Both the position numbers and the translations under genes were made by a program. The notes under the pieces are model-generated. The model saw only the letters and a program-made list of their open reading frames with translations. It made no database searches and had not been told where the DNA came from. From Methanobacteriales archaeon HGW-Methanobacteriales-1 (lineage in GTDB: Archaea > Methanobacteriota > Methanobacteria > Methanobacteriales > Methanobacteriaceae), in assembly GCA_002839705.1 (NCBI GenBank), contig PGYO01000001.1, forward strand, positions 186,001-250,000: a stretch of 64,000 nucleotides of DNA, read 5' to 3'. This document shows, piece by piece, positions 892-6,061 of the stretch (within the stretch, counting starts at the first letter, position 1; every line of letters begins with the position of its first letter).

Positions 892-1881
892 TCATTTAAC
901 GTACTGTTTAACATTTTCTCTCACAATAGCAGATGCACCAAGAATTTTAATCTCTTTTAACATCTCTGGAAATTTATTTTTTGTAATTAGAACATTAAAT
1001 TGGGAAAAATTGCTACCTTTGGTTATGGTAGGTTCATCAGAACAGTAATCATTAGAGACAAGAAATGACTTAGTATCTTCTACTCTGTGATTAGCTATGT
1101 TAAATTTCACATCAAAATATTTTCTAGCTTTAATTGCACCAAATAATTGATCAAATATCATATGGGCCTTTTCTAACTTTTGCCCAGCACAAGCAGGGCC
1201 TGCATAAAGACCCGCACTTGATTCCATTATGGTATCAATAATTTTTAGGCCAGCTTTTCTCAAACTGCTTCCGGTTTGAGTATTATCTACAATTAAATCT
1301 GCTCCTTTTGCAATATAAACTTCTGTGGCACCGTCGGAATTTATTATTTGGACCAGGTCATTTTCCCCATCCCACAAACCTCTTATTTGGACCAGGGGAG
1401 TTTTGTCTCCAAAAATTTGCTGGTAACCTTCGTTTTCCATGAAAAATTGCTTTGTGAGGTTTGGATATTCTGTAAAACATAAAATTGGTGTTTTTTTATC
1501 TGAATTGGTCTGGAAAAACTCAGTAAGGGAATCATATGGGGCCTCATTTGGTACGGCAACAATTAATTTTGTTTGACCATAATCAAGATCTCCAATTTTT
1601 GTTATTAGATTCTCTTCAACATTTACAGATTCTTCACGCACCCAATCTTCACCAATGATTGATATATCCAGCATTCCTCTGTTTAATTCCACTGGGGCAC
1701 TTTGAGGGCGAGTTAAGTAGGACTTTATTTCAGAATCATTGGTAATGTCCATTTCGTTTTCTTCTTTACCAGGTTCATATCCTCTAACTTCGTATCCAGC
1801 ATCCACAAATAATTGATAAGTATTTCCCCTGTTTACATTGTTTAAGCTCCCTTTGGGGAGTCCGAGTACTATTTTCTCCAT
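892..1881 (-). CDS. HisG-like ATP phosphoribosyltransferase family protein
   Basis: 329 aa from the ATG at 1881; an in-frame TTG at 1893 gives four more residues but has no better ribosome site. The N-terminus (VLGLPKGSL), the [19 protein letters not shown] segment followed by IGEDW, and the phosphate-loop segment [13 protein letters not shown] near residue 205 match the periplasmic-binding-like catalytic fold of HisG, which joins ATP and PRPP in the first step of histidine synthesis. It is longer than the usual 285-290 aa long-form HisG and several positions are divergent (for instance AGPACAGQK in place of usual residues). No other his gene is nearby. It could be the functional HisG or a paralogue with another nucleotide substrate. 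Family is confident, the exact reaction is not. Confidence 0.7.
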
Positions 1882-2006: not shown

Positions 2007-3215
2007 TTATTTCATACCTAATGGGCTAATTTTTCTTAGATTTTCAACTACTTGTGCTAATGCATCAGCAACAGCATCCATTTCTTCCATTGTATTGAAT
2101 CGGCCTAAAGTTAACCTTACAGACCCATGTGCTCTTTCAGGATTTCCCCCAATTCCTAAAATCACATGACTCGGGTCTAAAGACCTACTAAAACAAGCAG
2201 AACCAGTACTAACGGCAAATCCCCTCATGTCCAGATGTAAGGTTATAGATTCGCCTTCAACATATTCAAAGGTTATATTTACATTTTGAGGGGTTCTATT
2301 TGTGGTATGTCCATTTAAAATAGTTTTTGGAACTTCATTTAATATTCTATCTATTAAATGATCTCTCATATTTAGTAAACGTTGATTTTCATCTTCATTT
2401 ACTAATTGGATTGCTTTAGCAAATCCAACAGCTCCAGGAATATTTTCTGTTCCTCCTCGTAGATTAAATTCTTGAAAACCACCATCCATCCATTTTAATA
2501 GCGGAGTACCTTTACGTATATATAATACACCAATTCCTGCAGGGCCATGAATGGTATGGGCTGAAATCGAAATAAGATCTGCAGGGATTTTATTTACATT
2601 AAGGGGAAGTCTGGTAAATGAATGAGTTGCATCAGTATGGAAAAGAACTCCTTTTTCTTTACAAATTTTTCCAATGGTTTCTAAATCTTGTAAAGTACCT
2701 ATTTCCTGATTAGCATGTTGAATAGATACTATTATGGTCTCATTGGTAATTGAATTTTTTAGATCTTCTGGATCAATAAAACCATCCGGATCGACATCAA
2801 GAAATTTAACTTGGAAACCTAGTTTTTCCAGGGATTTAGCTGTGTTAAGAACTGAAAAATCTTCTATTGATGTGGTAATAACATGATTTTTTATTTCGTT
2901 TTTTACATCGGGATTGTTTTCCATTTCACGCTTTTTTCTTTGAGCCCAGGCCATCACAGTTCCTTTTAAAGCAATATTACTGGATTCAGTATTTCCAGAA
3001 GTAAAGATTATTTCTTCTTTAGAAGCCCCTAATGTCTCTGCTACGATTTTTCGACTATTATCAAGTATTTCACGTGATTCAATACCCATTGAATATCCCG
3101 ATTCAGAGGTAGGAATAGCATAATTTTCAAAAAAGCATTTTTGCATCTCTTCCAATACTCTTTCATCGAGGCGGGTCATCGAGGCATTATCTAAATAGGT
3201 ATAATTGTTTAACAT
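2007..3215 (-). CDS. NifS/IscS-like aminotransferase-fold protein lacking the PLP lysine
   Basis: 402 aa from the ATG at 3215, preceded by GGTGAAAAG; a longer reading to 3281 has no ribosome site. The fold and many landmarks are those of cysteine desulfurases: YLDNAS near residue 7, SGNTESSN near 73, HTDAT near 193, GGTEN near 254, and the persulfide-forming loop STGSACFS with Cys341. The lysine that forms the Schiff base with PLP in the SxHK motif is replaced: SAHTIHGPAG gives Thr221. The PLP-stacking His is Asp119 (IEDFSV) and the usual Gln is His198. The Asp binding the pyridine nitrogen (Asp195) remains. It is the third gene of an apparent operon behind TusA-like and DsrE-like genes. A normal desulfurase mechanism looks unlikely; a scaffold or sulfur-relay role is inferred. 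Confidence 0.85.
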   Translation of the reverse strand: MLNNYTYLDNASMTRLDERVLEEMQKCFFENYAIPTSESGYSMGIESREILDNSRKIVAETLGASKEEIIFTSGNTESSNIALKGTVMAWAQRKKREMENNPDVKNEIKNHVITTSIEDFSVLNTAKSLEKLGFQVKFLDVDPDGFIDPEDLKNSITNETIIVSIQHANQEIGTLQDLETIGKICKEKGVLFHTDATHSFTRLPLNVNKIPADLISISAHTIHGPAGIGVLYIRKGTPLLKWMDGGFQEFNLRGGTENIPGAVGFAKAIQLVNEDENQRLLNMRDHLIDRILNEVPKTILNGHTTNRTPQNVNITFEYVEGESITLHLDMRGFAVSTGSACFSRSLDPSHVILGIGGNPERAHGSVRLTLGRFNTMEEMDAVADALAQVVENLRKISPLGMK

Positions 3216-3308
3216 CTTTTCACCTGATTTTAAACCTGAAATTATTTGATTTAATAAATATTTTATTAAACTAATTTCCATTTATTAGAAAAGCCATTTA
3301 TAATCTAA

Positions 3309-3728
3309 TTATATGAAAAGTGTTATTTCCGAGTCTCTGGCTTCTTGGATATAAGTACCTACTGCACCATATTCATCAATTAAGTCCTGCTGAAGACCTT
3401 CTTTTTCAATACCCATTATTTCCATGGTCATTTCACAAGCAATTATTTTTCCACCAAGATCTTTATAATCTGATATTAGTCGTTCTAATGATGCCACATT
3501 GGCTTTTTTCATTCGGCTTTTAATCATCCATTTACCCAGGCCTAAAAAATGCATTTTAGACAATGGTCCTTTTTCGAGACCTCCTTTTTTAAGGCGCTCT
3601 AAGCCCCAAAAAGTGAAGTAAAGCGAAGCTTCCATCCCCATGGAAAGAGCACCATTGGCAATAATTAAAGCACTATATATCTTATCCATATCTCCACTAT
3701 GGACTACTATTGTTGCTTTTTGATTCAT
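3309..3728 (-). CDS. DsrE-family sulfur carrier-like protein
   Basis: 139 aa. The sequence starts with a Rossmann-like strand (ATIVVHSGDMDKIYSALI), has the hydrophobic SLYFTFWGLERL segment, and carries a conserved-type cysteine in IIACEMTMEIMG near residue 98, typical of the DsrE2 branch of DsrE/F proteins. Family members carry sulfur as a persulfide on this Cys and often sit beside TusA. The gene starts 4 nt after the TusA-like stop and is followed 93 nt later by the NifS-like gene, so co-transcription is likely. Cytosolic; no transmembrane segment apart from a mildly hydrophobic helix. The sulfur donor and acceptor are not deducible. Confidence 0.85.
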   Translation of the reverse strand: MNQKATIVVHSGDMDKIYSALIIANGALSMGMEASLYFTFWGLERLKKGGLEKGPLSKMHFLGLGKWMIKSRMKKANVASLERLISDYKDLGGKIIACEMTMEIMGIEKEGLQQDLIDEYGAVGTYIQEARDSEITLFI

Positions 3729-3732
3729 AAAA

Positions 3733-3954
3733 TCACCTTTTGATTTTTATTTTCCATATCCCATCAGTTTCTTCCACACTAATCAATTCCATGCCTAGGG
3801 CTTCTACGGCCATTGGTATTTCTTTTTTGGAAGCTGGGTGTGTTCCGGTTATTTCTACAATGTCTCCAGTTGAAGCAGTTCTTAATGCTTTTCTGGCCTC
3901 AACCAGAGGTATGGGACATGTTTCCCCTTTAACATCTACTTTTAAGTTACTCAT
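3733..3954 (-). CDS. TusA/SirA-family sulfurtransferase
   Basis: 73 aa, a complete TusA fold. The signature Cys-Pro-x-Pro is present as ETCPIPLVEARKAL at residues 11-24; Cys13 would carry the persulfide. It heads the leftward group with the DsrE-like gene (4 nt gap) and NifS-like gene. TusA/DsrE pairs serve in tRNA thiolation, sulfur oxidation or selenium handling in other organisms; which applies here is unknown. The ATG at 3954 follows GGGGAGATTCT on the coding strand, a good ribosome site. Methanogens often lack free-cysteine-based routes and use sulfide, so a persulfide relay of unknown purpose is the safest description. Confidence 0.9.
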   Translation of the reverse strand: MSNLKVDVKGETCPIPLVEARKALRTASTGDIVEITGTHPASKKEIPMAVEALGMELISVEETDGIWKIKIKR

Positions 3955-4411
3955 AGAATCTCCCCTATTGTAATTAAAAATTCATATTAATATTATGTTT
4001 TTAGAATAATATTTAACTTCCGAAAAATAGCTATTTTTACTAATCTAAATATGGGATTAATGGAATTTTTTATATTCAAAATAAATTTATTATTATTAAT
4101 AGGATCAAACTTTATTAATTTTCAATATTATTTAGATTTTCAGAATATGCATTAAGGAGTGGGGGTAATTAGTTCTTAAAAATATTGCTGAATGCTATTT
4201 TAGAATACTATCAATTAATAATTTTAGGCAGATTTTCATCTTGAAATTAATTGAATCATAAGCATATTCTTTAATATCTATTTTTTTGGAGAGTAGTATC
4301 TACACATTTTAGCACATCTAATGGCTATTTACCATATTTAATTCTACTTGGTTTAGTGTAGATTTATTATTGGTTGTGTTTATCTACTCATTTTCCAACG
4401 CCTCTTTTATT

Positions 4412-5592: not shown

Positions 5593-5612
5593 TATATAAC
5601 AATTGTTATATA
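5593..5612 (+). promoter_or_regulatory. 20-bp perfect palindrome over the TATA box of the NifX-like gene
   Basis: TATATAACAATTGTTATATA is perfectly self-complementary. Its core ATAACAATTGTTAT is identical to palindrome B at 4530-4545. It overlaps a TTTATATAA box, so a bound protein would block TBP. The downstream NifX-like gene starts about 66 nt further. Confidence 0.6.
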
Positions 5613-5677
5613 ATTGGCTTATCCAATTAATCTTGAAATTATTAAATTTAATAAAACAAAAAAATAAAGGTGATAAT

Positions 5678-6061
5678 ATTTCATTTAAAGTAGCAATAGC
5701 AAGTGAAGACGGATTATTCATTGATGAACACTTTGGAAGGGCTCCTAAATTTTTAATATTCAATGTTCATGAAAATGGAAGTTTTGAATTGATTGAATCA
5801 CGAAAAAATATCCCTCCTGAGGAATATCTAAAAAATCATGATCAAGCATTAAATAAAATCATAAATAAAGTGGCAGATTGCAGATTTGTCCTGGCAGAAA
5901 AAATTGGGCCTGATGCCAAAGAAAAATTAAACTATAACCATATACGTGCTTATGAACTAAATAATTCTATTGAAGAAGCTTTAGAAAGACTTTCAGCTGT
6001 TGTATATAGAAATTATCTTTCTAATTTCTCAAAAAATCATTTTAAAGCATCAATTAAATAA
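5678..6061 (+). CDS. NifX/NifB-like dinitrogenase cofactor-domain protein
   Basis: About 127 aa. The domain core (FKVAIASEDG, then DEHFGRAPKFLIF near residue 20-32) is the RNase H-like fold of NifX, NafY and the NifB C-terminus, which bind iron-molybdenum cofactor precursors; stand-alone archaeal copies are of unknown role. The start is odd: the ribosome site AAAGGTGAT (5666-5674) is followed at the normal distance by ATT (5678), not ATG. The only earlier in-frame start, TTG at 5603, lies inside the palindromic operator and would add a 25-residue hydrophobic leader unlike the family. I therefore place the start at ATT, tentatively. No nif structural genes are in view. Confidence 0.7.
   Translation: MSFKVAIASEDGLFIDEHFGRAPKFLIFNVHENGSFELIESRKNIPPEEYLKNHDQALNKIINKVADCRFVLAEKIGPDAKEKLNYNHIRAYELNNSIEEALERLSAVVYRNYLSNFSKNHFKASIK

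Follow-up and report, generated by a model that had tools for sequence, protein, structure and literature searches.

In a conserved clade of IscS/NifS homologues that spans archaea and bacteria, the PLP-binding lysine and several further PLP contacts have been lost throughout, and linkage to the sulfur carrier genes tusA and dsrE was exclusive to lysine-less IscS in our sample. We propose, at a rough probability of 0.55, that the member of this clade studied here is a PLP-free protein of IscS fold that relays persulfide from TusA/DsrE to an Fe-S scaffold. Its gene lies in a 64,000-nucleotide stretch of the genome of the archaeon HGW-Methanobacteriales-1, and this whole stretch is called the window below.

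Sulfur supply to Fe-S clusters in anaerobes living on sulfide is an open question. Loss of the lysine has been published. A literature search, outside which most subscription journals lay, returned no description of the breadth of the clade over two domains, the remade pocket, the operon of tusA, dsrE2, lysine-less iscS and iscU/DUF59, or the generality of the TusA/DsrE linkage.

Loss of the PLP lysine in an IscS-type protein

The 402-aa product of the gene matched PF00266 (E = 1.7e-67) and TIGR03402 (E = 2.7e-127), and was placed by Pfam and NCBIfam among the class-V aminotransferases of NifS/IscS type. It missed the NCBIfam equivalog cut-off, scoring 424.7 bits against 530.75 for NifS, and stayed under the cut-offs of all listed IscS, SufS and DndA models. 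Identity to archaeal canonical IscS copies was 44-47%. The predicted structure (pLDDT 85, pTM 0.87), in which two loops close to the active site were of low confidence, matched human Nfs1, E. coli IscS and A. fulgidus IscS in Foldseek with TM of about 0.85-0.9, and PDB 4eb5 was among the fold matches.

The PLP-contacting residues of E. coli IscS are established from IscS structures. The window protein was aligned to E. coli IscS for residue equivalences, and the gene and its relevant codons are as follows.

2007..3215, minus strand: homologue of IscS/NifS without the PLP lysine, 402 aa, T-type clade; profile matches, and NifS/IscS/Nfs1 fold by predicted structure
2193..2195, minus strand: codon of Cys341, which carries sulfur on the mobile loop (STGSACFSRSL); Cys in all types
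2547..2549, minus strand: codon of His223 by alignment; invariant in the clade, Asn, Tyr or His in canonical enzymes
2553..2555, minus strand: codon of Thr221, by alignment the site of the PLP-binding Lys206 of E. coli
2622..2624, minus strand: codon of His198, site of Gln183; His in 104/104 of the clade, Gln in 67/67 canonical enzymes
2706..2708, minus strand: codon of Gln170, site of Asn155; Gln in 104/104 of the clade, Asn in 67/67 canonical enzymes
2859..2861, minus strand: codon of Asp119, site of the PLP-stacking His104; Asp in 104/104 of the clade, His in 67/67 canonical enzymes

At position 221, lysine was found in all 67 canonical enzymes and in none of the 104 clade members, which had threonine (97), leucine (6) or alanine (1). 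Asp119, Gln166, Gln170, His198, His223, Cys341 and Phe342, the residue next to the loop cysteine, were each found in 104 of 104 distinct sequences of the clade; in the 67 canonical enzymes, position 119 was His, 166 Met or Ile, 170 Asn, 198 Gln and 221 Lys. Several E. coli residues were retained in the window protein (Asp180 as Asp195, Ser203 as Ser218, His205 as His220, Thr243 as Thr256, and Cys328 as Cys341). RGGTEN occupies residues 253-258. The PLP-phosphate threonine is Thr in the window genus and mostly Leu, Val or Ile across the remaining clade, so the earlier statement that GGTEN is intact holds for the genus and fails for the rest. An acidic residue, Asp or Glu, was present at phosphate-loop position 75 in 34 of the 104 members. 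Two lysines, Lys84 and Lys241, were invariant in the clade; Lys241 was specific to it, and Lys84 was also present in 84% of canonical enzymes.

The initial annotation, made from the window alone, had reported Thr221, Asp119, His198 and the Cys341 loop in a NifS/IscS homologue, and the reading frame, strand and residues agreed with our alignment. The Thr221 codon had been placed at 2564-2566, which straddles codons 217 and 218; it is at 2553-2555. The active-site changes that had been named were correct, and the replacement of Asn155 by Gln170 had been overlooked. A sequencing error at the lysine codon, which had been named as a possible objection, was excluded by the same residues in two other assemblies of the window genus (L010 and L011) and by distant homologues, all of which lack the lysine. 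An isolated loss in one archaeon was rejected by the absence of lysine throughout the clade.

Cysteine desulfuration by the lysine-less protein is unlikely as judged from its sequence, because the lysine is gone and most PLP contacts are changed. The earlier argument that no internal aldimine could form was strengthened by the clade-wide absence of lysine, the replacement of several PLP contacts and the acidic position 75 in 34 of 104 members, and PLP would probably be absent from the protein. The gene is under purifying selection in the window genus, with dN/dS of 0.11-0.16.

Distribution and relatives of the clade

The 104 distinct homologues, all without lysine at position 221, were collected from archaea and bacteria as 80 loci of a bacterial and archaeal genome scan, with more from whole-genome searches. 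Lysine-less T-type sequences formed a single clade (branch SH-aLRT 99-100) in which methanogen and bacterial copies fell together. The archaeal hosts were Methanobacteriaceae, Methanosarcinaceae, Methanothrix, Methanofastidiosa, Thermoplasmata, Theionarchaea, Altiarchaeales and Heimdallarchaeota, and the bacterial hosts were Chloroflexota (Dehalococcoidia and Anaerolineae), Syntrophales and other 'deltaproteobacteria', Atribacteria, Nitrospirota and Neomarinimicrobiota, many hosts being metagenome-assembled genomes. Members were rare, occurring in 5 of 152 genomes sampled from the window's phylum and 8 of 400 from Chloroflexota; the phylum that includes Methanolobus had them more often, in 56 of 394 (identity about 61% or more). 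No other IscS or SufS was seen in three genomes bearing the T-type gene (G153, G155 and G156), which are metagenome-assembled and may be incomplete.

According to PMC7585200, IscS1 of M. acetivorans (MA0808) is without the PLP lysine, and so is A. fulgidus IscS; the comparison with the Asp-bearing Archaeoglobus protein, made at the outset, was thus right. M. acetivorans IscS1 combines the missing lysine with the cysteine loop STGSACFS, as in the window clade, and by motif the window protein is in the same group. The same paper describes a large IscU1 (MA0807, 24.2 kDa), which is consistent with the IscU–DUF59 fusion of relatives, and places IscS1 in a cluster with four genes whose function is unknown; in the part of it consulted, TusA and DsrE are not named for the cluster, IscS1 is uncharacterised, and its expression gave inclusion bodies. 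The window genome differs from M. acetivorans in having no IscU1-type partner (IscU–DUF59 of about 24 kDa).

The best sequence match in the PDB was A. fulgidus IscS2 (4eb5 and 4hvk; D199K mutant 4r5f). Like the window protein, it has lost the lysine and kept the cysteine loop, and its homologues stand beside tusA/dsrE and iscU. Unlike the window protein, it has Asp at the lysine site, keeps the stacking His and the phosphate Thr/Ser, has changed Gln to Ala and His to Asn, goes with an ordinary IscU without DUF59, and belongs to a separate branch in the free tree, where the Asp-type (Archaeoglobus) and T-type sequences were apart. A single lysine-less clade of both types was nevertheless compatible with AU tests (p = 0.45 and 0.43). 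The initial annotation had suggested that the loss may recur in archaea; the window clade extends to bacterial phyla, and the trees are compatible with repeated loss and with one origin.

A third lysine-less variant, with the motif SGNQVHGP, was found at 2935-4158 (+) of locus L203 and branches as the sister group of the window clade. It keeps the His, has Ala for Gln and Gln for Lys, carries a Cys-Tyr loop, and has tusA downstream of iscU. In an Anaerolineae/Chloroflexota sub-branch (L077, L080, L092, L106, L115 and L118), position 221 is leucine and tusA has moved to a place downstream of iscU–DUF59.

Linkage to tusA and dsrE

Two carrier genes lie immediately upstream of the lysine-less gene of the window, on the same strand.

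3309..3728, minus strand: DsrE2-type sulfur carrier, 139 aa, with conserved Cys98 (PF13686, DrsE_2)
3733..3954, minus strand: TusA, 73 aa, with conserved Cys13 of the CPxP motif (PF01206)

The usual layout in relatives is a four-gene operon of tusA, dsrE2, lysine-less iscS and iscU fused to DUF59, an order also found at locus L202; the scaffold fusion combines PF01592 with PF01883 (DUF59/FeS_assembly_P). In the genome scan, tusA was present on the same strand at 72 of the 80 loci, dsrE2 at 69, a downstream iscU–DUF59 at 75, and all three at 63. TusA C13, DsrE2 C98 and IscU C36, C63 and C107 were conserved in essentially all copies across the operon loci.

Linkage was tested by searching with iterated TusA and DsrE HMMs and counting genes on the same strand at most 1.6 kb away. 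A tusA and/or dsrE gene was near 96 of 106 T-type genes, all 30 Asp-type genes (the kind of A. fulgidus IscS2, sampled at 30 loci) and the one Gln variant (L203), or 127 of 137 lysine-less genes, as compared with 0 of 71 canonical genes; these counts are phylogenetically non-independent, and most of the canonical controls belong to two phyla of archaea. The idea that canonical IscS is equally near tusA was rejected by the same HMM search. Ten T-type genes lacked a nearby carrier gene, some of them being at contig ends and some in Methanococcoides with full flanks. The DsrE of Asp-type loci scored best to PF02635 and that of T-type loci to PF13686, indicating that the pairing occurs again with another subfamily of carriers. 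Since one lysine-less origin fits the AU tests, the association is not yet countable as independent events. The link to TusA and DsrE-like carriers noticed at first in the window is thus real and far more general, and the carriers there amount to one TusA and one DsrE2-type protein. The TusA gene at 3733-3954 is the sole gene with a TusA domain in the window genome.

Neither the three genomes of the window genus nor the next relative (G011) carried the scaffold gene of the usual operon, which was present in G008. In the window genome, a canonical IscS is encoded at C6:66809-67948 with a short IscU adjoining, and a SufS-like protein is encoded as well. As a scaffold partner elsewhere in this genome we found just the short housekeeping IscU beside canonical IscS.

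A proposed persulfide relay and competing explanations

The fold and the mobile cysteine loop are kept and the carrier genes are adjacent, which favours a relay from TusA/DsrE2 through Cys341 to IscU. Cysteine would no longer be desulfurated, and the protein would act as a sulfur-relay adaptor together with TusA and DsrE2. TusA, once loaded, and DsrE2 would hold sulfur as persulfide on Cys13 and Cys98, respectively, and hand it to Cys341, whose loop would pass it on to a scaffold for Fe-S clusters. For most relatives this scaffold would be the co-encoded IscU–DUF59. In the window genus, the acceptor may be the housekeeping IscU encoded elsewhere, which is the obvious candidate, or another protein. 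This presumed direction is the reverse of that in E. coli, where sulfur passes from IscS to TusA. In the TusA-binding patch of the E. coli enzyme, two of the three Arg have no clear counterpart in the window protein, and canonical archaeal IscS proteins miss one too. In E. coli, IscU and TusA each bind to IscS and can share one dimer in mixed complexes (PMC11302665), and the fold can therefore bridge both. A PLP-independent relay through Cys341 had been suggested in the initial annotation, and among the readings considered it remains the one best supported by the sequences; the usual acceptor, IscU–DUF59, and its absence from the window genus had not been considered there.

The known systems differ from such a relay in various ways. 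Canonical IscS/NifS, represented by the E. coli enzyme and the archaeon's own copy, has the fold (TM about 0.85) and the cysteine loop in common with the window protein, in which the Lys, His, Gln and Asn of the PLP site are gone; the window protein has tusA/dsrE neighbours and the canonical genes only iscU. The two-protein SUF/SMS systems of methanogens (SmsCB, PMC12192291; SufB2C2, PMC12584684) are alike in assembling Fe-S clusters in sulfide-rich anaerobes with the cysteine desulfurase dispensable, but they use an unrelated SufBC ABC-type scaffold, with no IscS fold and no TusA/DsrE. TusA and DsrE-family proteins are persulfide carriers in sulfur oxidation by Allochromatium vinosum as well (PMC3397948); there they serve a dissimilatory pathway, whereas here their genes accompany one for a protein of IscS fold and, in most cases, one for an Fe-S scaffold.

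The main rival, which we consider possible if unlikely, is that Cys341 ligates the nascent cluster on IscU, that the sulfur comes from free sulfide, and that TusA/DsrE belong to another pathway or act as a buffer. A. fulgidus IscS, as cited in PMC7585200, has no lysine and no desulfurase activity, and in its structure with IscU its cysteine coordinates the [2Fe-2S] cluster; such a role is suggested as a possibility for IscS1 in the same paper, and sulfide is usable by the M. jannaschii SMS (PMC12192291). This leaves unexplained why all lysine-less classes and zero canonical copies are beside tusA/dsrE, and the genomes of the window genus have no co-encoded scaffold. With the relay, the puzzle of an A. 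fulgidus IscS unable to desulfurate cysteine would have a simple and testable answer, namely that sulfur is handed over by carriers and does not come from cysteine, and this idea extends to a clade that crosses the divide between archaea and bacteria. For such genomes, the annotation 'cysteine desulfurase', and any conclusion from it that an archaeon can use cysteine, can mislead.

The invariance of several new polar residues at PLP-contact positions (104 of 104) is above what mere loss of a cofactor would lead one to expect. It is rather improbable, though conceivable, that the clade is a new NifS-fold enzyme whose PLP site has been converted (Asp119, Gln166, Gln170, His198 and His223, for example for a metal) and which forms, with TusA, DsrE2 and IscU–DUF59, a distinct cysteine-desulfurase-independent machinery for Fe-S assembly or sulfur delivery in anaerobic archaea and bacteria. 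Similarly improbable is that the emptied pocket is a new site for a metal ion or other ligand, formed by Asp119, Gln166, Asp195, His198, His220 and His223, at which a different step such as iron delivery or persulfide reduction is catalysed or regulated; ferritin genes between the lysine-less gene and iscU in some Chloroflexota would agree with this, but the two low-confidence loops of the predicted model are near this very pocket.

Continued use of a pyridoxal cofactor, as PMP, as PLP lacking its normal Schiff base, or by way of a different lysine (such as Lys84 or Lys241), in a desulfurase or transaminase-like reaction, appears very unlikely. Asp195, which would face the pyridine N, His220, Ser218 and Thr76 are mostly retained, both lysines are invariant in the clade, and A. 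fulgidus IscS was reportedly isolated with PMP. Against these stand the replaced stacking His, Gln and Asn, the phosphate Thr replaced in most members, and the acidic position 75 in a third of the clade (34/104); Lys84, being common in canonical enzymes, is not a new catalytic lysine. That the gene is a dead, decaying paralogue is scarcely credible and was rejected, even though the genus lacks the dedicated scaffold gene and has a canonical IscS-IscU pair in the same genome, since the low dN/dS, the residues invariant over two domains of life and the conserved operon all speak against decay.

Other genes were noted around the operon. A ferritin gene (PF00210) lies between lysine-less iscS and iscU–DUF59 in the Chloroflexota loci L044, L092 and L118, which hints at a connection with iron, and genes for heavy-metal P-type ATPases lie close to the operon in a number of Dehalococcoidia and relatives (L043, L045, L055 and L075). 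Directly downstream of the operon in the window, at 892-1881 (-), is a second, divergent homologue of HisG (ATP phosphoribosyltransferase), another and better-scoring HisG being encoded on contig C13. The divergent HisG is paired with the operon again in L039 and, at a distance, in L040, so this paralogue may have another role. A NifX/NafY-like protein with a dinitrogenase iron-molybdenum cofactor domain (PF02579) is encoded near the operon on the opposite strand, at 5603-6061 (+).
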